IMG/VR virus record: IMGVR_UViG_3300019764_000008
Coordinates: 1 to 47,159 of that record
Origin: a virus
Reading direction: 5' to 3' (one strand)
DNA length: 47,159 bases
Part shown: positions 2,459-46,291 of the stretch, piece by piece
Position numbering within the stretch: the stretch's first letter is position 1
How the letters are laid out: every line of letters begins with the position of its first letter
The notes under the pieces: model-generated
Seen by the model: only the letters and a program-made list of their open reading frames with translations
Told to the model about the DNA's origin: nothing
The model's database searches: none
Program-made: the position numbers and the translations under genes

Positions 2459-3589
2459 ATGAATACTTGGACGTATAAAAGCGCTACCGAAAAAAGTACA
2501 GGCTACGAGGCTGATATCTTGGACTTGTCCCTGTGGGATCGGGAGAGCTTTCTAGCCGAAAGCCCGGAGAGCCAGGCCGAGATAGTAGACTCTATCTTCG
2601 AAGTTTACCGAGGCCGGAATATTTTCCCCATAACCTACTTTAACCACGCCGGAGCACTTCGAGAGGTGCGCAAGTGCATAGAGCGCCCGGTTAGCTTTTC
2701 CGGCGAGGTACTTAACCCCAGCCTCAACCAAGGCGGGGCACTGTGTAGGTTCCTCTTTCCGAACCTTGCAAGAGTAGACTGCAAGGGCGTAGAGAATAAC
2801 TCCCCCTACGATAAGTTTATGGACGACCACAAGCTTAAGAGGGCGGTAGACTTCTGTCTTAGATATAAAAACTCGACAGCCCCGGCGATGCCTTCGGGCA
2901 TAAAAGACGGCTTAGAAATGTTGGGCGGGAACGTCGCTACTAATTTCAAGCCTATGAATGCTAAGGCTCTTTTCGAAAAATACTGCCCTGAGGGCGGAAC
3001 TATTTACGACTTCGCGGCAGGCTTCGGCGGGCGTATGCTCGGGGCGCTAAGCAGCAAACAGGATTTTAAGTATGTAGCTGTAGAGCCTTGTTCCGACACG
3101 TTCGAGAATTTGCACAAACTAGGGGCCCTTATAGAAGAGGAGACAGGCCGGGATAATATTTTCGAAGTGCATAAGCTAGGGAGCGAGGACTTTAGGCCCG
3201 AACAAGGGGGCTGGGCCTCCTTCTCATTCAGTAGCCCTCCTTATTTTTCTCTAGAGGGCTACAGTTCAGAAGAGACGCAATGCTATATAAAATTCCCTAC
3301 CCTCTCCGAGTGGTTCGAGGGGTACGTCAGACCAACGATAAAAAACATATACCACGCCCTAGAGGATGGGGCGCACTACGCGGTAAACATAGCCGATTTT
3401 AATATGGGCTCTACTCGGGTGGAGTTCGTGGACCGTTGGCGCGAGATAAGCGAGGAGGAGGGCTTCGAGTTCGTGGAGCTTATAAGCATGAAGCTACAGG
3501 CTCGAAGGGGCGCAGGCCACGACGTGATCAATAAAAAAGCAAAACAGGAGGGTATCCTTGTGTTTAATAAAAACGAAATGCTAAAATAA
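2459..3589 (+). CDS. DNA methyltransferase-like protein with SPPY motif
   Basis: The 376-residue protein has a class I SAM-dependent methyltransferase fold. DFAAGFGGRMLGA (about 182-194) is the SAM-binding motif I, followed by a VAVEP strand (acidic residue binding the SAM ribose). FSSPPYF (about 260-266) is motif IV of N6-adenine/N4-cytosine amino-methyltransferases. The N-terminal 150 residues are not recognised and may be a target or accessory domain. It has its own promoter and leader. No restriction enzyme gene is adjacent, so it more likely modifies phage DNA for protection or regulation. The exact substrate cannot be read from the sequence. Confidence 0.8.
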   Translation: MNTWTYKSATEKSTGYEADILDLSLWDRESFLAESPESQAEIVDSIFEVYRGRNIFPITYFNHAGALREVRKCIERPVSFSGEVLNPSLNQGGALCRFLFPNLARVDCKGVENNSPYDKFMDDHKLKRAVDFCLRYKNSTAPAMPSGIKDGLEMLGGNVATNFKPMNAKALFEKYCPEGGTIYDFAAGFGGRMLGALSSKQDFKYVAVEPCSDTFENLHKLGALIEEETGRDNIFEVHKLGSEDFRPEQGGWASFSFSSPPYFSLEGYSSEETQCYIKFPTLSEWFEGYVRPTIKNIYHALEDGAHYAVNIADFNMGSTRVEFVDRWREISEEEGFEFVELISMKLQARRGAGHDVINKKAKQEGILVFNKNEMLK

Positions 3590-3595
3590 AACGAT

Positions 3596-3838
3596 ATGGA
3601 AGCAAGAAAGCAAGACGACAGTTACCGACCTAAGGAGGAGGCTATTATTAGCCGCGTTGGTCAATTCGGAATAATAGGTCCTGGTTACCGCGAGGACTTA
3701 GTGGGTACAAGGGTCGAATGTATTGGTGGAGGTGAGCTAGCCCAGGACAGAGGCTTAACGTTCTGGGACGACGAGAACATGGAGACGTACCAAATGTTTA
3801 ACGCGGGTGACATTATAACGTGGGAGGCTAGAGCATGA
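3596..3838 (+). CDS. Hypothetical protein
   Basis: The protein has 80 residues and starts 6 nt after the methyltransferase stop. A glycine-rich middle (RVGQFGIIGPGYRED) leads to an acidic C-terminal region (LTFWDDENMETYQMFNAGDII). No domain is recognised. The stop overlaps the start of the next ORF as ATGA, suggesting coupled translation. Confidence 0.6.
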   Translation: MEARKQDDSYRPKEEAIISRVGQFGIIGPGYREDLVGTRVECIGGGELAQDRGLTFWDDENMETYQMFNAGDIITWEARA

Positions 3839-4014
3839 GCGGATTAGGTAGTGTTAGCAATAGGGCATTGATAGACTATATTGAAAACGAGGCAGAGATC
3901 GCAATGCCGATAGCTGAACTAATGCACGAAGACGGCAGGCACTTGTCGAAGAAAGAATACGGCAAAGTGCTTCTTAAATACCTAGTAAAAGAATTACGAG
4001 AGCGTTACTGCTAA
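3835..4014 (+). CDS. Hypothetical protein, ends in the first attC-like site
   Basis: This 59-residue ORF starts at ATG 3835, overlapping the previous stop, and ends at TAA 4012-4014. It is helical (MSGLGSVSNRALIDYIENE... LLKYLVKELRERYC) and of unknown function. Its stop lies inside the first attC-like site. A GTTAGCA at 3853-3859 is nearly complementary to the TGCTAAT at 4009-4015. The ORF may therefore be a phage start codon fused into a first cassette inserted at G3853/T3854. That fusion is inference. Confidence 0.55.
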   Translation: MSGLGSVSNRALIDYIENEAEIAMPIAELMHEDGRHLSKKEYGKVLLKYLVKELRERYC

Positions 4015-4069
4015 TGGACAAGGCTATGTGCATACTGAGGAACGAAGTTGCATATAGGTAATGTTACCT
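4009..4069 (+). repeat. attC-like site a
   Basis: The first arm is TGCTAATGG (4009-4017). Stem strands CTATGTGCA (4023-4031) and TGCATATAG (4049-4057) pair with one G-U. The final arm is GTTACCT (4063-4069), with the predicted crossover at G4063/T4064. It closes a cassette whose start is uncertain, possibly 3854. Confidence 0.7.
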
Positions 4070-4162
4070 GCTTTGTTTTATTTTTAGGGAGGGTTTTTTA
4101 TTATTTAATAAATAAGTATTATAATTTATTTGCGCGTATAATAAATATGTATTATATTAGCA

Positions 4163-4480
4163 ATGTATTTAAAACTTATTGACATGACAAACATATTTGA
4201 AATAAAAAACGGTTTTTACAATATTTGTATCGACTCTAAACTTGGGAAATATCAAAAATTTTTTCTTTTATTCGATAAACGATATCCAGAAGATGATGGA
4301 ATATTGATTGAAGTTGAGAAATTTAATGAGTGGAAAAATAAAAAAATACCATATTATTTTGGTTTCCCGTATGCTGGACAAAAAGATAGTGGATGCAATA
4401 CCCCTAGAGAAAGGTGTGAATACATAGACTGGGTTCATTTCACTTCTCATGAATATCAAAATAACTTTTTAACTAATTAG
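4163..4480 (+). CDS. Hypothetical cassette protein
   Basis: The protein has up to 105 residues. ATG at 4184 (MTNIFEIKNGFYN) is an equally good start. Codons are AT-rich, unlike the phage genes. It is aromatic-rich, with DKRYPEDDGILIEVEKFNEW, a stretch around IPYYFGFPYAG, and a WVHFTSHEY end. This looks like a small soluble alpha/beta domain, but I do not recognise it. TATATTAG about 20 nt after a TTTG, just upstream, may be a cassette promoter. It is the first ORF of cassette 4064-4743. Confidence 0.65.
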   Translation: MYLKLIDMTNIFEIKNGFYNICIDSKLGKYQKFFLLFDKRYPEDDGILIEVEKFNEWKNKKIPYYFGFPYAGQKDSGCNTPRERCEYIDWVHFTSHEYQNNFLTN

Positions 4481-4481
4481 T

Positions 4482-4673
4482 ATGATGGATAAAATTAAAC
4501 AAGCTGCCGTTCATACATTCGGCAGTTTTCGCAAGTACGCAATCCATTTTGAAACTTACCCACGTAATTTTGAATTGAGAATTTCAAGCCATATTGAGAA
4601 ATTGCAAAAGTGGCTAAATCCACTTGGTTATGAAATCGTTTTGAAAAAACGAAAGTGCGGAGGTAAAAAATAA
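4482..4673 (+). CDS. Small basic cassette protein
   Basis: The 63-residue protein starts right after the preceding stop (two adjacent ATGs) and is very basic. The tail is KKRKCGGKK, preceded by helical stretches (HIEKLQKWLNPLGYEIV). No family is recognised. It shares cassette 4064-4743 with the 105-residue ORF, and its stop lies only 7 nt before the first arm of attC-like site b, the usual placement of a cassette gene. Confidence 0.6.
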   Translation: MMDKIKQAAVHTFGSFRKYAIHFETYPRNFELRISSHIEKLQKWLNPLGYEIVLKKRKCGGKK

Positions 4674-4679
4674 AATATT

Positions 4680-4751
4680 GCAGGTAATGGCCCGTGTATG
4701 GTGTCGGATTTTGAGGAACGAAAAATATGCACTATACGTTTTGTTAAGTGC
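4680..4751 (+). repeat. attC-like site b
   Basis: The first arm GCAGGTAAT (4680-4688) is complementary at 8 of 9 positions to the cassette start GTTACCTGC (4063-4071). An imperfect stem GTATGGTG/CACTATAC carries a loop containing TTGAGGAACGAA, which is also seen in site a. The final arm GTTAAGTGC begins at 4743, with crossover at G4743/T4744. Confidence 0.8.
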
Positions 4752-4780
4752 TTTTATTAATAATTTAAACAAATAATACG

Positions 4781-4999
4781 ATGAGTAAGATAATAGATTC
4801 AATAGAAAAAGGTTACGGAGACGATAGTATTTATTTTAAAGTAGGCAATAGTGGAGTAACTAAGATAGAAGAAGGCTTGAAGCCTGTTGAGTTTGACGGA
4901 AATGGCATAACGAAAGAACTTCTTATATATAATGTATTTGTCGGAGATAAAATAGTATCAGAAATAGAGTCGAATAGTGGATTGTGCGTTTCGTTTTAA
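4781..4999 (+). CDS. Hypothetical cassette protein
   Basis: The 72-residue protein starts 37 nt into cassette 4744-5089 and stops 2 nt before the next attC-like arm. This is the typical compact layout of integron cassettes. The sequence (MSKIIDSIEKGYGDDSIYFKV... LIYNVFVGDKIVSEIESNSG) predicts a short helix followed by beta strands. No family is recognised. Confidence 0.65.
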   Translation: MSKIIDSIEKGYGDDSIYFKVGNSGVTKIEEGLKPVEFDGNGITKELLIYNVFVGDKIVSEIESNSGLCVSF

Positions 5000-5001
5000 T
5001 T

Positions 5002-5095
5002 GCACTTAACGGACAAGAATATGGTTTTGTAAGCCTGATATAAATTTACAAACTAATACAAACCTTATGCTTATAAACTATATTTAGTGTTATGC
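5002..5095 (+). repeat. attC-like site c
   Basis: The first arm GCACTTAAC (5002-5010) is a perfect complement (9/9) of the cassette start GTTAAGTGC (4743-4751). A longer imperfect hairpin follows (TTTGTAA with TTACAAA, and GGTT with AACC). The final arm is GTTATGC (5089-5095), with crossover at G5089/T5090. Confidence 0.8.
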
Positions 5096-5114
5096 ATCTT
5101 CAAAAATTACTAAG

Positions 5115-5276
5115 ATGAAAATAATTAAAGTGGGAAATGTTGAAGTAAAAACTAAAGACAAAGTGTGTGGGAAATGCAATAGTGAATTGCAGTATGAACC
5201 AAAAGACGTACAAAGCGACAGAGATGGTAGGTGCATAATTTGCCCTGTGTGTGGGCAGTTTATAGCGGTACAGTAA
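5115..5276 (+). CDS. Small zinc-ribbon cassette protein
   Basis: This 53-residue ORF runs from ATG 5115 to TAA 5274. It has two cysteine knuckles, VCGKCNSEL (residues 18-26) and ICPVCGQF (about 42-49). CxxC...CxxC spacing is a classic zinc ribbon. It probably binds nucleic acid or a protein partner. It is the only ORF of cassette 5090-5350 and ends 8 nt before the next attC-like arm. Confidence 0.75.
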   Translation: MKIIKVGNVEVKTKDKVCGKCNSELQYEPKDVQSDRDGRCIICPVCGQFIAVQ

Positions 5277-5284
5277 TTTTTATT

Positions 5285-5356
5285 GTGCCTAACGGTTTGA
5301 ATATGTGGCGGCTTGTGTTGCGCCTGCGGCAAGCTGACATATATTTGTTGTTACCA
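5285..5356 (+). repeat. attC-like site d
   Basis: The first arm GTGCCTAAC (5285-5293) is complementary at 7 of 9 positions to the cassette start GTTATGCAT. The stem pairs ATATGT with ACATAT and CGGCTTG with CAAGCTG, with an unpaired GG on one strand, as extrahelical bases occur in attC sites. The final arm is GTTACCA (5350-5356), with crossover at G5350/T5351. Confidence 0.8.
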
Positions 5357-5426
5357 ACTGGCGGTTTATGCAGGCGTTAATTAAATGAACGGAAGTAATA
5401 ATAAATAATTTTTAGGGAGGGATTTT

Positions 5427-6191
5427 ATGGAATTAAATAGCGTGTACAACGAATCGAACTTAGATACAATGGGTAAGATGCCTGACAACTTTATAGACTT
5501 AGTTGTTACAAGCCCGCCATACGGTAAGCTCAGAAAATACAATGGTTTTGCCTTCGATTTTTATGCGTATGCAAAAGAAGCGTACAGAACAATGAAAGAT
5601 GGCGGTGTATTAGTTTGGGTGTGCCAAGACCAGTGTATCAATGGCGGTGAAAGTATGGTAAGTTTTGAACAAGCTTTATATTTCAAAGAAGTTGGATTTA
5701 GACTTTACGACACTATGATTTGGAAGAAACCAAGTCCGCAAGCACCAACAGAGGGCAGATATTATGACGTATTTGAGTATATGTTTGTGTTTAGTAAAGG
5801 TAGACCAAAAACGCTAAACCTGCTCGCTGACAGAAAAAACAAAAGTGCTGGAAGTGTATCTAAAAAGGAAACAAGAAGCTGTAGAGAGGATAGGAAATAT
5901 AAAGATGAAACCCGAACAGTAAAAGAATTTGGCAGAAGATTTAATGTTTGGGAAATTAGTAGGGGTAAAAACAAGACAGCACACCCTGCTGTTTTTCCTG
6001 AACAATTGGCAAATGACCACATATTAAGTTGGAGCAACAAAGGTGATATTGTCTACGACCCATTTGCAGGAAGTGGCACTACTGCTAAAATGAGCATCGT
6101 AAACGGTAGGAATTGGATAGCATCGGAGATGAGCTTTGAGTATTGTGAAATAATAAAAGAACGCATAAACTCTATCCAAATGGCTTTATAA
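5427..6191 (+). CDS. Orphan DNA N4/N6 amino-methyltransferase (cassette gene)
   Basis: The protein has 254 residues. VVTSPPYGKL (about 26-35) is catalytic motif IV, and YDPFAGSGTTA (about 213-223) is the SAM-binding motif I. Motif IV precedes motif I, the beta-class order. HPAVFPEQLANDHI (about 189-202) is the conserved stretch before motif I. It would methylate N6-adenine or N4-cytosine in a short DNA site. There is no endonuclease partner. The ATG follows an AGGGAGGG Shine-Dalgarno-like sequence. AT-rich codons mark it as foreign to the phage backbone. It is the only clear gene in cassette 5351-6363. Confidence 0.9.
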   Translation: MELNSVYNESNLDTMGKMPDNFIDLVVTSPPYGKLRKYNGFAFDFYAYAKEAYRTMKDGGVLVWVCQDQCINGGESMVSFEQALYFKEVGFRLYDTMIWKKPSPQAPTEGRYYDVFEYMFVFSKGRPKTLNLLADRKNKSAGSVSKKETRSCREDRKYKDETRTVKEFGRRFNVWEISRGKNKTAHPAVFPEQLANDHILSWSNKGDIVYDPFAGSGTTAKMSIVNGRNWIASEMSFEYCEIIKERINSIQMAL

Positions 6192-6196
6192 AAGCC

Positions 6197-6273
6197 AAAG
6201 CGGGCGGGCAGAAATTATTTATTATGGTAAATTTAGCACTGACCTTGATTAAACGAGCAAATGCCCTTCCGCT
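6197..6273 (+). other. Long inverted repeat inside cassette 4
   Basis: AAGCGGGCGGGCA near 6198 and TGCCCTTCCGCTT near 6261-6273 pair at 11 of 13 positions around a loop of about 50 nt. The element lies between the methyltransferase stop and attC-like site e and ends directly at the GTTGGTAAC arm. It could be a terminator or the remnant of another attC. It lacks the TAAYG arm of the other sites. Confidence 0.5.
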
Positions 6274-6274
6274 T

Positions 6275-6369
6275 GTTGGTAACGCACTAAACTAAGTTTT
6301 AGTAGCGTAGAATTGAATTATCAAATTAGCATTAACTACAATAGCTATTAAATTTAGTTGTTGTTATAA
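6275..6369 (+). repeat. attC-like site e
   Basis: The first arm GTTGGTAAC (6275-6283) is a perfect complement of the cassette start GTTACCAAC (5350-5358). A strong hairpin pairs AACTAA with TTAGTT and TTTAGTAGC with GCTATTAAA, with small bulges. The final arm is GTTATAA (6363-6369), with crossover at G6363/T6364. Confidence 0.8.
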
Positions 6370-6388
6370 AACTTTTAAATATTTAAAA

Positions 6389-6640
6389 ATGGAAAATGAA
6401 ATTAAAGATATAGAATTAGCACAAACAATATTGAAAGTGTGTAAAAAACACCAAGAAGAGCGAGTTAGTGGACAATGGTATATAACACAAACGGGATTAA
6501 ATAAAGTCGCTAAACTTATTGGCGGCACTTACGAAGCGTTGACCAAGAAACAAAGGGCTGAATTTAGAAATGATTGTGTTTGTGCGGCGCATGAAAACAG
6601 ATATGCAGTTATGACATGGTGGCATTATATAAATATTTAA
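6389..6640 (+). CDS. Hypothetical cassette protein
   Basis: The 83-residue protein starts 25 nt into cassette 6364-6702 and stops 4 nt before the next attC-like arm. A helical N-terminus (MENEIKDIELAQTILKVCKKH) precedes a small domain ending VMTWWHYINI. No family is recognised. Codon use is AT-rich like the other cassette genes. Confidence 0.65.
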   Translation: MENEIKDIELAQTILKVCKKHQEERVSGQWYITQTGLNKVAKLIGGTYEALTKKQRAEFRNDCVCAAHENRYAVMTWWHYINI

Positions 6641-6643
6641 TTG

Positions 6644-6708
6644 TTTATAACGGTTTGGCTATGTGCCGTTGTGAGGCACGAGCAATGGACCTATAGCCTG
6701 TGTTACCC
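6644..6708 (+). repeat. attC-like site f (last site)
   Basis: The first arm TTTATAAC (6644-6651) is a perfect complement of the cassette start GTTATAAA (6363-6370). The stem pairs GGCTAT with ATAGCC and contains an inner stem GTGCC/GGCAC. The final arm is GTTACCC (6702-6708). Phage-like sequence resumes after it, so G6702/T6703 is the predicted right junction of the array. Confidence 0.8.
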
Positions 6709-6742: not shown

Positions 6743-7168
6743 ATGAAAGCAAGGACAGGAGCATGGAGGCTGAAAAACAAGGAACTAAACGAGGCTATCA
6801 GAGCCTTGGAAATTAAGATTACCCAGGCGCCGCTAGGCCCTGAGGGTATTAACTCCCTAAAGTTGGCCCTGGAGCAGGAGGAGCCCATATCCCCCGAGGC
6901 CTCGACTCTGAGGGTAGATATAAAATTTAAGGAGTACGACCTAGAAACCGCTAAGGGCCACCTGGAACGCCTAAAGGCTGAGAAGCAAGCCCACGCGGAG
7001 CTCCTTAACTCTCCTACAGAGTCGCCGGAGGCTAAGAGGGTACGTCTGTTTAATGAAATGGCGGAGCTTGAAGCCCAAAAGCGCGAGCTGAGGGACCAGC
7101 TAAAGGGACTAACCAAGCAGATTAATAATAAGGTAAGGCAAATTAACCGATTAGATAAGGAGGACTAA
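6743..7168 (+). CDS. Coiled-coil protein 1 of 3
   Basis: The protein has 141 residues from ATG 6743. The open frame extends upstream to 6641, but that part is attC-like sequence and is not used. Long charged heptad helices (LNEAIRALEIKITQAP..., EMAELEAQKRELRDQLKGL) predict a coiled coil for most of its length. The sequence ends LDKED. The final codons contain AAGGAGG, acting as a ribosome binding site for the next ATG. No family is recognised. Confidence 0.75.
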   Translation: MKARTGAWRLKNKELNEAIRALEIKITQAPLGPEGINSLKLALEQEEPISPEASTLRVDIKFKEYDLETAKGHLERLKAEKQAHAELLNSPTESPEAKRVRLFNEMAELEAQKRELRDQLKGLTKQINNKVRQINRLDKED

Positions 7169-7996: not shown

Positions 7997-8118
7997 GAGC
8001 TACAGCTAAGCTACAGCTCCAAAAAGGAGTCTATGTCTATACGCCACTTTTCAATATTTGGTTTATGGATATAGTCTCCTTTTTTGAGCTAGAAAAAGCT
8101 ACAGCTGAGCTACAGCTC
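7997..8118 (+). repeat. Cluster of hairpins with four AGCTACAGCT repeats
   Basis: AGCTACAGCT occurs at 7998-8007, 8009-8018, 8097-8106 and 8108-8117, as two tandem pairs. Between them AAAAAGGAG..CTATGTC (from about 8021) pairs with GATATAG..CTCCTTTTT (to about 8085), about 16 bp around a 30-nt loop. It ends in a T run, so it can terminate the upstream genes. TTTTTTGAGCT and AGCTCAAAAAA form a further 11-bp inverted repeat at about 8080-8124. Confidence 0.7.
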
Positions 8119-8129
8119 AAAAAAGGCCA

Positions 8130-8430
8130 AAAAGAGCAACAAAGAATAAACAATAAGTATACAATGCAGCCCTTTAAAATCAGTACTTTAGCTTTTAAAA
8201 TATACAGAAACAAAGAAAAGCTAAAAAACCTTATATAATAGAATATAGATAATAGTCTATATATAGTATAGTAGAATAATATTTATAGGATATTATCTAT
8301 TTTAGTTTAATAGAGTTTTTCGGCCACTTTCTTTGTTTCTTTGTTTATTTGGTGCTAAGTTGTTGATTATGAGTGGTACTTAGGTAAACAAGCTTTGTAT
8401 ATCTTTGTATACTTTGTTTATTTGCCTTTT
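8130..8430 (+). repeat. AT-rich region flanked by inverted AACAAAG/CTTTGTT repeats
   Basis: This region has no gene. The left side has AACAAAG-type repeats (about 8138-8217). The centre (about 8230-8310) is almost pure A/T with short palindromes. The right side has CTTTGTTT, TTTGTTTA and TAAACAAG repeats (about 8330-8422). The same arrangement is found at 31018-31320. Candidates are a replication origin, a regulator-binding region or a partition-like site. None is proven. Confidence 0.6.
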
Positions 8431-8447
8431 TGGGCTGCTTGGCTTGC

Positions 8448-8474
8448 TTGGTCCGATAATTCTGTTTAATTTTG
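8448..8474 (+). promoter_or_regulatory. Putative promoter of the packaging/late genes
   Basis: TAATTTTG at 8467-8474 matches the Bacteroidota -7 consensus TAnnTTTG. A TTG lies at 8448-8450, 16 nt upstream. The predicted start of transcription is about 20 nt before the ATG of the small terminase gene. Confidence 0.55.
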
Positions 8475-8498
8475 TTGCATAATCAAACTATTTATATT

Positions 8499-9086
8499 AT
8501 GGCTAAGAATAAAAACAACATAGACCCACTAGTAGAGTGCGACAATTGGCTTGATGCTGAGGAGACTACAGAAGAAACCTACGCCAATAAGCTGCGAAAG
8601 GCTACAGTAGGGAGGCCCCGAAAGCTAGAAAGTCCTGAGGCTCTTTGGGGGTTCTTCTGCGACTACGTAGAGGAGGAAACAAATAACCCGTTTTACAAGC
8701 AGGAGGCCATTAAGTCCGGGGAGCGAGCAGGGCAGCTCATAGCTATACCCACTTTTAAACCCCTAACATGGCAAGGGTTCTCTAGTTATCTGTTTATCAA
8801 CAAGATAATAGCTAGGATAGACGACTACAAAGCGAATACTAATAATTCTTACACAGAATTTTCGAGCATCATCACGTGTATAGGTGAGGCTATGTACGCC
8901 CAGAAGCTATCAGGAGCCGCTACAGGCGCCTTTAACCCCAACATCATAGCTAGAGAGCTAGGGCTAGCAGAAAAGACCGTACAGGACGTTACAACGCGTG
9001 ACGAAACTCAGATAGACTACTCGAAACTTTCACCCGAGGCACTGGAGGAGATAGCCAGCCAGCTAAACCAAAAAGCTGAAAAATGA
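8499..9086 (+). CDS. terS: Terminase small subunit
   Basis: The protein has 195 residues from ATG 8499 (a longer frame from 8472 exists but covers the promoter region). The N-terminal GRPRKLESPEALWGFFCDYVEE is followed by TWQGFSSYLF, FSSIITCIGEAMYAQKLSGAATG and FNPNIIARELGLAEK. This is the pattern of gp3-like small terminases in Bacteroidetes phages. It should bind the packaging site and recruit the large subunit. It overlaps terL by 4 nt. Confidence 0.85.
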   Translation: MAKNKNNIDPLVECDNWLDAEETTEETYANKLRKATVGRPRKLESPEALWGFFCDYVEEETNNPFYKQEAIKSGERAGQLIAIPTFKPLTWQGFSSYLFINKIIARIDDYKANTNNSYTEFSSIITCIGEAMYAQKLSGAATGAFNPNIIARELGLAEKTVQDVTTRDETQIDYSKLSPEALEEIASQLNQKAEK

Positions 9087-10507
9087 AACTAAACTTAAAC
9101 CCTAACAAAGCTCTTGCGGAATTATGCCGCAGGAGCTTTTATCGATTTGTGCAAGAGTTCTGGGACGTGATCATACAAGAGCCCCCAGTGTTCAACTGGC
9201 ACATAGAATACTTGTGCGACGAACTACAGTACCTAAATAGCTTTGTAGTGCTGCGAGAGCCTAAGCCTTATGATTTGGCTATAAATGTCCCCCCAGGGTC
9301 TACTAAGTCGACTATCGTGTCTCAGATGTATAACGCTTGGGTCTGGACAATAGACCCGACGCAGCGCTTTATCTCTTCTAGTTACTCTATGAACTTGGCA
9401 GTGTCCCACTCAGTTAAGACGAGGGACATAATCCTTAGTGATAAGTACCAGGAGCTCTTCCCGGAGGTCCAGCTTAAGGCTGACCAATCGGGAAAGATGA
9501 ATTTCTCCAATACAGCAGGAGGGCAAAGGTTCACCACTTCGACGGGCGGAACGGTTACAGGTATGCACGCCCACCAGATTCTAGACGACGACCCGAGTAA
9601 CCCACAGCTGGCACAGAGTAAGAAAGAGCGAGAGAATACGAACGCCTTTTGTGGCCAGACGCTCTCCTCTCGTAAAGTAGACAAGGCAGTCACTCCGACT
9701 ATCCGAGTCATGCAGCGACTACATGAGGAGGACCCTACGGGTATGATGTTGCAAAAGAAGAAAGCCAAGCTTAAGCACATATGTCTACCAGCTGAGCTCT
9801 CGGACCTAGTGAGCCCTCCAGAGTTGAGGGATAGATATACCGACGGGCTGATGGACCCTATAAGACTTAACCCTGAGGTCCTGGCAGAAGCTAAGGCCGA
9901 CCTGGGGAGTTATGGCTACGCGGGGCAGTTCGACCAGAACCCGGCACCAGCTGAGGGGGGTATCCTAAAACGTGAGTGGTTCGAGATCATAGACTGGACG
10001 CCTGAGTTAGCGATGCTATCCTGGAACTTTACAGCCGATACAGCCTACACGAAGGACGACACGAACGACCCGAGCGGGTACCTAGCCTATGCTAAATTTC
10101 AAAATGATTTTATTATCAGAGGGGCCCAGCTTGACTATGTAGAATTTCCGGAGTTATGTAAGACTTTGCCAGGCTTTGCCTATGCCAACGGATACACTAG
10201 GCAGTCTATGATCGAGGTAGAGCCTAAGGCGTCGGGGAAGTCATTAGTGCAAACGCTAAAGAGGAACACCCAGCTAAACATCAAAGAGGGCAAACCCCCG
10301 GCAAAGGACAAGATAGCCAGAGCCAACGACTCCAGCCCGACCATAGAGTCCGGCAGAGTTAAGCTTATTAGGGGGCCATGGAACAAAGAGTTTATAGATC
10401 AGGTCTGCACCTTCCCCAATGCAGCGCACGACGAATATGTAGACTGTTTGACTATGATGGTGGGGGACACTAGAGAGAAGCGTAAAGGAGTCAAGCGTAG
10501 GAACTAA
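9083..10507 (+). CDS. terL: Terminase large subunit
   Basis: The 474-residue protein powers DNA packaging and cuts the concatemer. The ATPase P-loop is the variant NVPPGSTKST (about 68-77). Walker B is HQILDDDP (about 161-168), with the DDD acidic cluster. The C-terminal RNase-H-like nuclease begins near FTADTAYTKDD (about 316-326), which supplies the first metal-binding Asp, and HDEYVDCLTMMV near the end supplies later acidic residues. The length is normal for the family, and it lies directly after terS. Confidence 0.95.
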   Translation: MKLNLNPNKALAELCRRSFYRFVQEFWDVIIQEPPVFNWHIEYLCDELQYLNSFVVLREPKPYDLAINVPPGSTKSTIVSQMYNAWVWTIDPTQRFISSSYSMNLAVSHSVKTRDIILSDKYQELFPEVQLKADQSGKMNFSNTAGGQRFTTSTGGTVTGMHAHQILDDDPSNPQLAQSKKERENTNAFCGQTLSSRKVDKAVTPTIRVMQRLHEEDPTGMMLQKKKAKLKHICLPAELSDLVSPPELRDRYTDGLMDPIRLNPEVLAEAKADLGSYGYAGQFDQNPAPAEGGILKREWFEIIDWTPELAMLSWNFTADTAYTKDDTNDPSGYLAYAKFQNDFIIRGAQLDYVEFPELCKTLPGFAYANGYTRQSMIEVEPKASGKSLVQTLKRNTQLNIKEGKPPAKDKIARANDSSPTIESGRVKLIRGPWNKEFIDQVCTFPNAAHDEYVDCLTMMVGDTREKRKGVKRRN

Positions 10508-10515
10508 TTAAATTT

Positions 10516-10616
10516 AATTTGCATTTATTTGCATATTTATTTTGTAGTCTATAAAATTGTAGTACCTTAGCAGAGCGATACGGCACTAAAGCCTCCGCCT
10601 TAAAATTCTATATGTT
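10516..10616 (+). promoter_or_regulatory. Promoter and conserved leader hairpin, copy 2
   Basis: TTTGCATATTTATTTTGTAG lies at about 10529-10548. The leader core TTAGCAGAGCGATACGGCAC starts at 10567, with GGC/GCC and GCG/CGC able to pair. The upstream 20 nt is nearly the same as in copy 4 at 42570. It drives the sliding-clamp-like gene. Confidence 0.75.
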
Positions 10617-11171
10617 ATGAGAGATATTCTCCCAAAGTTAAACCTAGCTTGCGCAAAAGACAAACTTAGACCAGCAATGAACCACGTTTATATCAACGGC
10701 GAGGAGACGGTAGCCAGCGACACGCATATCCTAGTCGTACATAAAACGGCGGACCTATTCGGCGACGTAGCCAACGACCTGCCAGCTAATTGTCTTATCC
10801 CTGCTGAGGACTGGGCAGAGTTAACGTCTAAGTTTGAAAGACTAGAGGTGTCAGGCGACTACCTGATGGTACACCGTAAGAAAGGGGCCCCTAGAGCCGC
10901 TAGACTAGTCAAGCCTGAGGACGTAGGGCAGTATCCTAACTACCGCGCAGTAATGCCTCTCGAATCTAAAAAGGGACCTGTGGAGCAGATAGGTTTAAAT
11001 CCTGACTGCATAGCTAGACTATTCGCGGCAATGACAGCCGACAAAAACACAGCGTTATCCTTTACTTTCATATCTGAGAGCCATGGCGTGCTCGCTAAGG
11101 TGAACTATCCTAAAGAGTATGGCACGCGCTACGAAGTCGAGGGCGTAATTATGCCCATGCTGATAAGGTAA
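10617..11171 (+). CDS. DNA sliding clamp-like protein (beta-clamp domain)
   Basis: The protein has 184 residues. The stretch RPAMNHVYINGEETVASDTHILVVHK (about 21-46) resembles the first strand-helix unit of DnaN-type clamps, where the pattern is a structural turn, G, V/ASD, followed by a hydrophobic strand. CLIPAEDW (about 61-68) also fits. The protein is about half the size of bacterial DnaN, so it would need to oligomerise further or act as a clamp-fold protein of another role. A terminator follows. It may increase processivity of the phage polymerase. Its position in the late block is unusual. Confidence 0.65.
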   Translation: MRDILPKLNLACAKDKLRPAMNHVYINGEETVASDTHILVVHKTADLFGDVANDLPANCLIPAEDWAELTSKFERLEVSGDYLMVHRKKGAPRAARLVKPEDVGQYPNYRAVMPLESKKGPVEQIGLNPDCIARLFAAMTADKNTALSFTFISESHGVLAKVNYPKEYGTRYEVEGVIMPMLIR

Positions 11172-30782: not shown

Positions 30783-31007
30783 ATGTGGCAAAATATAGCA
30801 CTGCTAGCGATAGGCTTCTCCGGGGGACTACTAGCTGGGTACTCTTTTAAGAAAGGGCCCAAAACAATCAACGCAGAGACATACTACGAGAGTCAAACGC
30901 AGGAGATAGATATAGCGCGTATCAAGCAGAAAAAGAGCGACGGCGAGCAATCGGTCGAAATTAAACCAACGTTCTTTAAAAGGCTCCTAAAGGGCAAAAA
31001 GAAATAA
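30783..31007 (+). CDS. Small membrane protein
   Basis: The 74-residue protein has one N-terminal transmembrane segment (about 3-23, QNIALLAIGFSGGLLAGY) and a hydrophilic charged tail ending FKRLLKGKKK. No family is recognised. It is the last gene before the second non-coding repeat region. Confidence 0.65.
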   Translation: MWQNIALLAIGFSGGLLAGYSFKKGPKTINAETYYESQTQEIDIARIKQKKSDGEQSVEIKPTFFKRLLKGKKK

Positions 31008-31017
31008 AAGACTTATT

Positions 31018-31320
31018 AGTCCGAACATAAACAAAGTAAACAAAAGTAAACAAAGATTGTTTATCTGTGGGCTCCTCAAGATCAGCTAGTTACAGCGAAA
31101 TAAACAAAGTAAACAAAGATTATATAAAAGACTATATTAGATTAATATGGTATATATGGTAGTAGTTTTATATACCACATATACCAAACGCGATTGTAAG
31201 AGGTCTTTTGTTGTTTTTATTGTTTCTTTGTTTATTTGCTCGTAACTGCTTAATATTGAGGTGCTAGCAGGTAAACAATCTTTGTTTATTTTGTTTATTC
31301 TTTGTTTATTCTTTGTTTAT
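31018..31320 (+). repeat. AT-rich region flanked by inverted TAAACAAAG repeats (second copy)
   Basis: At least four copies of TAAACAAAG/TAAACAAAA lie to the left (31028-31119). An AT-rich palindromic centre runs from about 31120 to 31190, with TATATATGG/CCACATATA-type symmetry. CTTTGTTTA repeats (31225-31320) lie to the right. The layout and some flanking words (GGTAAACAA, TTTGTTTATT) match 8130-8430. The region between 31008 and 31480 has no other gene. Confidence 0.65.
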
Positions 31321-31392
31321 CCTGGAGAGTGTAAATTTATTTGCTCCGCAGTTGCTTGGTATGCAAGCAGTTACAAAGAGTTATAAAATTAA

Positions 31393-31482
31393 TTTGCAAA
31401 AAAGTATAGAATATATTTGCAGGTTTAGAAAATAGCAGTACTTTAGCAGAGCAATAAGGCACAAAACAAACACAGAAACAAG
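31393..31482 (+). promoter_or_regulatory. Promoter and degenerate leader, copy 3
   Basis: TTTG at 31393-31396 and TATATTTG at 31412-31419 (15-nt spacing) form a Bacteroidota-type promoter. A degenerate leader TTTAGCAGAGCAATAAGGC follows at 31442. The AGCGA/TCGCT pairing of the other copies is lost here. Confidence 0.7.
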
Positions 31483-31572
31483 ATGACAAAGCGAAACAAA
31501 ATCAGAGTAGAGCTAGCAGTATTGGCCGTATGGGCTTGCGTAGCTTTTTATCTAATCGTTATAACTTTCTAA
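31483..31572 (+). CDS. Single-helix membrane peptide
   Basis: The 29-residue ORF (MTKRNKIRVELAVLAVWACV... VITF) has an N-terminal basic stretch followed by one hydrophobic helix of about 18 residues. It is the first gene of the right-hand transcript, just after the promoter/leader. Such small proteins are hard to assign; a toxin-like or regulatory membrane peptide is possible. Confidence 0.5.
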   Translation: MTKRNKIRVELAVLAVWACVAFYLIVITF

Positions 31573-42655: not shown

Positions 42656-43897
42656 ATGAACAAGCCAAATATTAAAAACCTAGACCTACTAATCAAGACC
42701 TACAACGAAATGTATATCGAGACTTTGCGCTACGATATCGACGCGGAGGACGGCGACGCTTACCTTTTCAGTTCTCACGAAGCGCATAGAGTTTATCCGA
42801 CGTCTGAGTGTTTGGAGGCCTACCTTATCGGAGCTATTAAGAACGGAGTACAGCGCACGCTAGACCCTAACTACTCAGACGGCGGCCTAGAGGCTTCCCC
42901 TGAGTATTTGGAGCAAAAAAAAGCGGAGGCAGAGCTTGACGAGTACTTAGAAAGTACTGAGTATACTACCCTAGCCCCTGAGGTGTGCGAGGCTAAAGCT
43001 ATCAACCAGGAGGCAGTCTCTAAGGAGCAGCTTATAGACCGCCAAAGCTGGACGCTAGACCAGAAGATCGACCACGCTCTCGGAGCTATAGAGCAATTTT
43101 ATAACTACTACGAGGGCAAGGTGTACATTTCTTTTTCTGGGGGCAAGGACTCCACAGTCTTAAGGCATCTAGTCCGCAGGCTCTACCCGGACGCCGCTTG
43201 CGTGTTTTGTGATACGGGGCTAGAGTTCCCGGAGGTTAAGGAGTTTGTTAAGTCCTGCGAGGGGGCTACCTGGATAAAGCCCAAATTTACCTTTAAGGAG
43301 GTAGTGGACAAATACGGATACCCTATGATATCAAAGGAGACCTCCGAGAAGCTACGCAAGTACAAAACGCAGAACCTCTCCGACAGATACAGGGGTATTT
43401 TGCTGAACGGTAGCGAGAAAGGCACGGCCGGAATGATTCCGAAAAAGTGGCAATTTTTGATAAAAGAGGATATTAAGATTAGCGGCCAATGTTGCGACAA
43501 GCTAAAGAAAGACCCTTTTAAGGTTTTCGAGAAAGCTACAGGCCTAAAGCCTATTATCGGGACTATGGCAAAGGACAGCCTACTTAGAGCCCGCACGTAT
43601 AAGAAAACAGGTTGTAACAGCTTCGACAGCAAGAGGCCCAAGTCTACCCCCCTAGGGATTTGGACAGAGGCGGACATCTGGGAATACATTAAACGTTTTA
43701 AGGTGCCCTATTCGAAAATCTACGACATGGGCTACGACCGTACAGGCTGCGTATTCTGTATGTTTGGGGCGCACCTGGAGAAAGAGGCTAACCGCTTCCA
43801 GCTTATGGCAGGCACACACCCGAAACTACACAACTACTGTATCAATAAGCTAGGGCTTGCGGAGCCGTTGAAGTTAATGGGGGTAGAATATGAGTAA
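42656..43897 (+). CDS. PAPS reductase-like protein
   Basis: The 413-residue protein has an unrecognised N-terminal domain (about 1-150), then SFSGGKDST (about 159-167). This is the PP-loop that binds the nucleotide in the phosphoadenosine phosphosulfate reductase/adenine-nucleotide hydrolase superfamily. ACVFCDTGLEFPEV (about 182-195) is a family hallmark. Further cysteines (GQCCDKL about 277, GCVFCMFG about 363) could bind a metal cluster or act in sulfur transfer. Related phage enzymes may transfer sulfur to DNA or tRNA, or use other nucleotides. It overlaps the next gene by 8 nt. Confidence 0.8.
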   Translation: MNKPNIKNLDLLIKTYNEMYIETLRYDIDAEDGDAYLFSSHEAHRVYPTSECLEAYLIGAIKNGVQRTLDPNYSDGGLEASPEYLEQKKAEAELDEYLESTEYTTLAPEVCEAKAINQEAVSKEQLIDRQSWTLDQKIDHALGAIEQFYNYYEGKVYISFSGGKDSTVLRHLVRRLYPDAACVFCDTGLEFPEVKEFVKSCEGATWIKPKFTFKEVVDKYGYPMISKETSEKLRKYKTQNLSDRYRGILLNGSEKGTAGMIPKKWQFLIKEDIKISGQCCDKLKKDPFKVFEKATGLKPIIGTMAKDSLLRARTYKKTGCNSFDSKRPKSTPLGIWTEADIWEYIKRFKVPYSKIYDMGYDRTGCVFCMFGAHLEKEANRFQLMAGTHPKLHNYCINKLGLAEPLKLMGVEYE

Positions 43898-46140: not shown

Positions 46141-46158
46141 TTTTACACACTAATAAAC

Positions 46159-46198
46159 TATAGGCTAGCTCTTTAAAAGGTTAGCCTATATTTTTTTT
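46159..46198 (+). terminator. Rho-independent terminator
   Basis: TATAGGCTA (46159-46167) pairs perfectly with TAGCCTATA (46182-46190), followed by eight T. It closes the ThyX/DUF3310 transcript before the fifth promoter/leader module. Confidence 0.9.
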
Positions 46199-46201
46199 AA
46201 T

Positions 46202-46291
46202 CTTTTTTGCAGATTTATTTTGAGGTTCAAATAAAAGCAGTACCTTAGCAGAGCGATACGGCACTAAAGCCTCGCTACTAAAAACAAAACT
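46202..46291 (+). promoter_or_regulatory. Promoter and conserved leader hairpin, copy 5
   Basis: TTTTTTGCAGATTTATTTTG lies at 46204-46222. The core TTAGCAGAGCGATACGGCAC starts at 46245. AGCGA-TAC-GGC-ACTAAA-GCC-TCGCT can form the same hairpin as in copies 1, 2 and 4. It directly follows a terminator, so it must start a new transcript. Confidence 0.8.

Follow-up and report, generated by a model that had tools for sequence, protein, structure and literature searches.

A putative phage-adapted, integron-like cassette array without a recombinase gene in a tailed phage genome

The virus record IMGVR_UViG_3300019764_000008 from IMG/VR, a sequence of 47,159 bases that was analysed over its whole length and is here called the window, contains at positions 4009-6708 a block in which six hairpin sites alternate with six small AT-rich open reading frames (ORFs), with GC-richer phage genes on either side. 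We interpret this block, with a probability of about 0.8, as a phage-borne, recombinase-less cassette array of a phage-adapted integron-like system. It is also likely, though we hold this somewhat less firmly, that Bacteroidota phages, very large ones included, run an integron of their own, in which a compact IntI-like recombinase lacking the IntI insertion would move attC-type cassettes among phages, with the ORFs turned to join phage transcription; the window phage would carry such cassettes and depend on the recombinase of another phage.

The six sites are listed below, with bit scores from R1, a covariance model of 33 sequences: four are window sites, phage P12002L contributed two, and 27 were taken from bacterial genomes.

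S1, 4009-4069, plus strand: attC-like site, 47.9 bits, match to the strict pattern
S2, 4682-4749, plus strand: attC-like site, 46.4 bits
S3, 5004-5095, plus strand: attC-like site, 33.6 bits
S4, 5287-5356, plus strand: attC-like site, 53.6 bits
S5, 6277-6369, plus strand: divergent attC-like site, just 15.3 bits, backed by cassette-end complementarity and CTTG-N5-AAC
S6, 6645-6708, plus strand: terminal attC-like site before the phage genes, 56.8 bits

A strict site pattern (TAAC-N6-TATA...CATA-N6/7-CCRTTA) matched four of these six sites and nothing else in the 47 kb, and gave 0 matches in 100 dinucleotide shuffles. The sites resemble attC in forming an imperfect hairpin and in having R boxes (TAAC/GTTA) together with an L stem that is conserved and covaries: in the site alignment the TAAY and GTTA ends are nearly invariant, and 87.7% of the cells of the L stem are paired, versus 73.9% after shuffling and at most 46.7% in slid versions. 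The stem is visible only in the alignment, the free folding of single sites giving mixed structures, and no Rfam family matched the sites. S6 is near-identical to one chromosomal site. With five sites scoring 34-57 bits and a weak sixth inside 2.7 kb, the block is a cluster of attC sites lacking integron-integrases (CALIN), defined by at least two clustered attC sites. The only further R1 match above 20 bits in the window (46148-46202, 21 bits) was rejected as an attC site, being a strong terminator hairpin followed by a T-run, and it sets the false-positive level of the model. This terminator, the hairpin nature of the sites and the fact that AT-rich morons are common in phages are what could be said for reading the block as a phage accessory-gene hotspot, in which the hairpins would be transcription terminators and genes would be swapped by homologous or illegitimate recombination with no site-specific system; the near-invariant TAAY/GTTA ends and the covariation of the L stem speak against it.

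In integrons, the two ends of a cassette are mutually complementary, because in the free circle they make up the outer boxes of the site. The same is observed in the window, where the bases that follow each GTTA are complementary to those preceding the next TAAY (54 identities over 5 x 18 positions, with a permutation mean of 31.4), the true pairing of cassette ends is the best of 120 orders, and the two ends of one site are far less alike than the two ends of one cassette; such complementarity of facing ends is a further argument against a hotspot. A motif [AC]TTG-N5-AAY precedes five of the six sites, the exception being the left flank of S1, on the phage side. An earlier note, made from the letters of this DNA, had described an integron-type cassette array inside a phage, and the six sites, the small AT-rich ORFs and the complementary cassette ends bear this out. 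Its layout of the array stands for the number of sites and needs correction in two places, since the fifth site lies at 6277-6369 and one of the cassettes contains a pair of ORFs (4163-4480 and 4482-4673).

The partner enzyme of such sites was looked for in genomes carrying related arrays. Of 396 genomes of the phylum, 105 encode a canonical IntI, as defined by a score above the NCBIfam cut-off of the profile TIGR02249; many of these genes are located at the end of a contig, as the neighbourhood of a repetitive array would lead one to expect. A search reaching about 10 kb from each of 20 canonical IntI genes of the phylum found no site of the present type, and TIGR02249 turned out to be the wrong probe for the partner enzyme: none of the 18 array genomes passes its cut-off, and the loci it does identify are without these sites. 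Tyrosine recombinases of the array genomes match this profile in two pieces with the middle missing, and 14 contigs have a recombinase of this kind at most 20 kb from the sites, always on the GTTA side; 11 of these contigs came from 111 sampled genomes belonging to one family, and three from elsewhere. A 265-amino-acid recombinase beside a phage-type array served as lead to 80 virus contigs with relatives, in about 50 of which the recombinase is positioned at the 3' end of the array. All 108 site matches near phage recombinases are on the recombinase strand, 107 of them upstream of the gene, and neighbouring cassette ends in these arrays are complementary at 4.2 of 6 positions (2.2 for random pairs), with 12 of 31 pairs perfect. 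A terminase scored over the cut-off in nine of 30 recombinase-bearing virus records, including contigs of 208-465 kb.

The phage recombinases form one clade apart from IntI and Xer (support 100/99), in which the catalytic residues R, K, H, R, H and Y are invariant. The distance from the Lys loop to the HxxRH motif is 53 residues, versus 100 in IntI, and the IntI-specific insertion, which is held to be essential for integron function (PMC8138268), is missing. The predicted fold (pLDDT 87) best matches IntI4 (2A3V), ahead of XerA, while the best protein family is the XerA-type NCBIfam NF040815, with 168-191 bits, under its cut-off of 220. Hairpin ends and small cargo would also suit the remnant of another single-strand element (IS200/IS605-like or retron-like) with attC-resembling ends. 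We regard this as extremely improbable: no transposase or reverse transcriptase was seen among the profile matches of the block ORFs, and the gene adjoining related arrays encodes a tyrosine recombinase of the IntI/Xer family.

Differences between arrays of this layout can be followed in the Polaribacter phage Freya, whose isolates Freya_1 to Freya_10 (genomes of 43,978 to 48,920 bases) were obtained on one host strain (PMC8776804). The Freya recombinase gene directly follows an array of small ORFs and its product is sister to the phage recombinase clade (SH-aLRT 97); the layout, an ATTG-N5-AAC end, a GAGGCACGAA loop and the tree link Freya to this main clade. Eight pairwise comparisons among the arrays of Freya 1, 5, 6, 8, 9 and 10 each revealed one clean indel, the ends of which share AAC, CAAC or TACCAAC, and most differences are found at the recombinase-proximal end, beside a constant end in which AAC is followed by ACCCCTATAAC. 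This constant end, located before the recombinase, is a candidate attI. These sequences show that whole cassettes are gained or lost at AAC. The junctions are base-exact at AAC, and the exchanged end is the TAAC end, which gives the system its polarity. These junctions and the strict link of the sites to a recombinase gene further speak against a hotspot, an explanation that we hold to be very unlikely. In the Freya paper the recombinase gene is taken for a lysogeny integrase, and there is no mention of cassettes or integrons (PMC8776804). The sister phage Danklef is also variable in length (47.2-48.2 kb).

With the polarity taken from Freya, the window has five cassettes and the terminal site at 6645-6708; the cassettes and their ORFs are as follows, the cassette boundaries being those predicted from the Freya junctions.

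K1, 4016-4688, plus strand: putative cassette with the S1 core and two ORFs, ends complementary at 15/18 positions
4163-4480, plus strand: ORF of 105 amino acids in K1, the sister assembly being the only virus contig with a relative
4482-4673, plus strand: ORF of 63 amino acids in K1
K2, 4689-5010, plus strand: putative cassette with the S2 core and the ORF 4781-4999 (72 amino acids), ends complementary at 11/18
K3, 5011-5293, plus strand: putative cassette with the S3 core and the ORF 5115-5276 (53 amino acids, zinc-ribbon-like, phrog_2834, E=1.4e-7), ends complementary at 9/18
K4, 5294-6283, plus strand: putative cassette with the S4 core and the DNA methyltransferase ORF, ends complementary at 9/18, and at 4/4 beside the core
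5427-6191, plus strand: N6/N4 DNA methyltransferase of orphan type in K4, 254 amino acids (Pfam N6_N4_Mtase, 2.8e-44; PADLOC oMTase, 3.7e-86)
K5, 6284-6651, plus strand: putative cassette with the S5 core and the ORF 6389-6640 (83 amino acids), ends complementary at 10/18

A first cassette starting at 3853 (ends complementary at 10/18) was considered and dropped, as the left flank of S1 has no cassette-end motif and the ORF 3835-4014 has a phage-like composition. The methyltransferase is the largest cargo of the array and most likely represents an anti-restriction gene, a role that fits because its relatives adjoin sites of this type in nine of 77 other virus loci, where 16 of 16 sites are on the methyltransferase strand. 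For the small cassette ORFs the search for relatives gave nothing informative.

The distribution of the sites was scrutinized in 84,980 prokaryote genomes, in which the strict pattern gave 31 exact matches; 29 of these fall in genomes labelled as Bacteroidota or as Ignavibacteria group, or in bacteria without a name, and the remaining two bear other names. Virus contigs gave 118 matches. Among isolated phages, two sites (R1 56.9 and 47.2 bits) adjoin DNA methyltransferase genes of Polaribacter phage P12002L and are, from this context, presumably those attC sites of the phage that Qi et al. tested with IntI1, one of which (attC2) recombined (PMC9892861). The two groups of sites differ in the direction of their ORFs. 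Based on the ORF ending at the site, 61 IMG/VR virus sites show one orientation and none the reverse (26 are not callable or show both), whereas chromosomal sites with a callable ORF direction are in 27 cases the reverse of the phage type and in 10 the same; the loop type is mostly different too. In both groups a TTG-N5-AAC element is found only on the TAAC side (24-37%, versus about 2% elsewhere), so the sites keep one polarity and it is the ORFs that are turned. Several chromosomal arrays of the same site family (in Tenacibaculum sp. SG-28 and at two further loci, L229 and L230) adjoin XerA/IntI-like recombinases without the IntI insertion, their ORFs being opposite to the phage type and the recombinase having the direction of the ORFs. 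The recombinase of chromosomal arrays is usually codirectional with the cassette ORFs, unlike in canonical integrons.

These data bear on the origin of the block. The earlier note had proposed capture from a host chromosomal integron with the host IntI acting in trans, and Qi et al. explain phage CALINs along similar lines; part of a chromosomal integron of Bacteroidota could have moved into the phage in this way, at a secondary attG-like site, or by illegitimate recombination. The Bacteroidota-specific site type, the existence of chromosomal arrays with similar sites, the frequency of canonical IntI in the phylum and the ability of IntI1 to use a site of this type (PMC9892861) are all compatible with such an origin. 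The ORF orientation (61:0 in phages, 10:27 in chromosomes), the mostly different loop type, the 20 canonical IntI loci devoid of these sites within about 10 kb and the recombinases that phages themselves possess beside such arrays argue against it, and we consider it unlikely; the chromosomal integron was dropped as donor after the split in ORF orientation.

The window phage encodes terminase, portal, tape-measure, exonuclease and DNA polymerase genes. The features framing the array, and the terminase, are:

3835-4014, plus strand: phage ORF left of the array, whose TAA stop is the left arm (TAAT) of S1; putative insertion point
6743-7168, plus strand: first phage gene right of the array, G+C content at third codon positions (GC3) 0.59
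9083-10507, plus strand: terminase large subunit (TerL; phrog_38, 6.4e-94), which marks the record as a tailed phage

The portal protein is closest to those of Croceibacter phage P2559Y and of phages of Elizabethkingia, Bacteroides and Flavobacterium; as these relatives are, except for one record, all Bacteroidota phages, the host is very probably a member of the Bacteroidota, and the Bacteroidota character that the earlier note had ascribed to the sites agrees both with the portal and with the 29 of 31 pattern matches. Its description of the block as lying between GC-richer phage genes likewise holds, the G+C content being 33.8% in the block, 48.6% upstream and 45.9% downstream; per 500 bases it drops to 28-39% within the block, and GC3 is 0.24-0.35 for the six block ORFs versus 0.42-0.59 for the phage genes. 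The array did not arise as an assembly chimera within a single sample, because a second assembly (IMGVR 3300019763_000021) is a 100% match across 8,436 bp of the array region. Relatives of the window phage with a TerL 68-75% identical have no block and no such sites, so the block is not one that all relatives carry unchanged. Outside the array, a second, diverged DNA-methylase-like gene is located at 2459-3589, with relatives 61-62% identical in two virus contigs. A 120-base stretch at 2342-2462, upstream of the first methylase-like gene, has a 76%-identical repeat at 10504-10623, just past the terminase gene. A PAPS-reductase-like gene (phrog_424) is found at 42656-43897, and AT-rich stretches (about 30% G+C) without sites of the array type are also present at 8001-8500 and 31001-31500.

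Taken as a phage-adapted system, the array would work as follows. Each cassette is made up of a site core and, after it, one or two small ORFs, and closes in TTG-N5-AAY, as observed in the window. A tyrosine recombinase would exchange DNA at the AAC of adjoining sites, and whole cassettes would come or go while the phage genes are left intact, as seen in the Freya isolates and presumed for the window, where the recombination activity of S1 to S6 is a prediction. The enzyme would be phage-encoded, about 267 amino acids long, related to IntI without its insertion, and placed on the array strand at the 3' end, as in the relatives. As had been claimed from the letters, the window has no integrase: tblastn with 16 IntI/XerA-like recombinases over its whole length gave nothing below E=0.04. 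Since no recombinase is encoded there, movement must have used an enzyme from elsewhere; the cassettes were probably put in by the recombinase of another phage, or the phage may have lost a gene of its own. The cassettes were apparently inserted at the TAA stop codon that ends ORF 3835-4014, so that this phage gene would have stayed intact, and the cassette ORFs, codirectional with the phage genes, would be read by phage transcription rather than from a promoter in an integrase gene.

Several observations weigh against this interpretation. The window phage itself has no known recombinase and no known cassette variant in the data, the sole second copy being identical. Integron attC sites have extrahelical bases on the R''-L'' arm of the recombinogenic strand; the stem of the present sites conserves a single bulged base and a single G-U mismatch, but not on the arm that the Freya junctions would predict, the bulged base lying where the opposite polarity would place it. 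R1 does not find the Freya sites (best 11.9 bits), and identity between the Freya recombinase and the main clade is just 36%. Finally, 21 of the 30 recombinase-bearing contigs have no terminase over the cut-off; they may be fragments, or may carry a terminase family that escapes the profile.

The system shares with the canonical integron its hairpin sites with TAAC/GTTA boxes, one site per cassette, complementary cassette ends and one recombinase at one array end; it differs by a recombinase without the IntI insertion and by ORFs that point toward the recombinase. NF040815, annotated as 'site-specific tyrosine recombinase/integron integrase', is the best family match, but the phage enzymes score below its cut-off and are located beside cassette arrays. 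The Freya phages have in common with the other phage arrays a small-ORF array with hairpin sites just upstream of the recombinase and whole-cassette differences, while their site sequences have diverged. The nearest published case is that of the phage CALINs of Qi et al. (2023, PMC9892861), especially P12002L, with the same site type, DNA methyltransferase neighbours and no integrase in the array; these were explained as parts of bacterial integrons, and no phage recombinase family, array polarity or natural turnover was described. CALINs in phages are therefore already published, and the insertion-less phage recombinase, the array polarity and the natural cassette turnover appear to be new with respect to the open-access full-text literature.

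Integrons have been regarded as devices of bacteria, and the CALINs of phages as fragments strayed from them. The Freya isolates provide a ready laboratory model for the system proposed here. If the interpretation is true, phages would stock anti-restriction and other accessory genes and swap them with one another by site-specific recombination, and a recombinase working without the supposedly essential insertion (PMC8138268) would bear on how folded single-strand sites are recognized.

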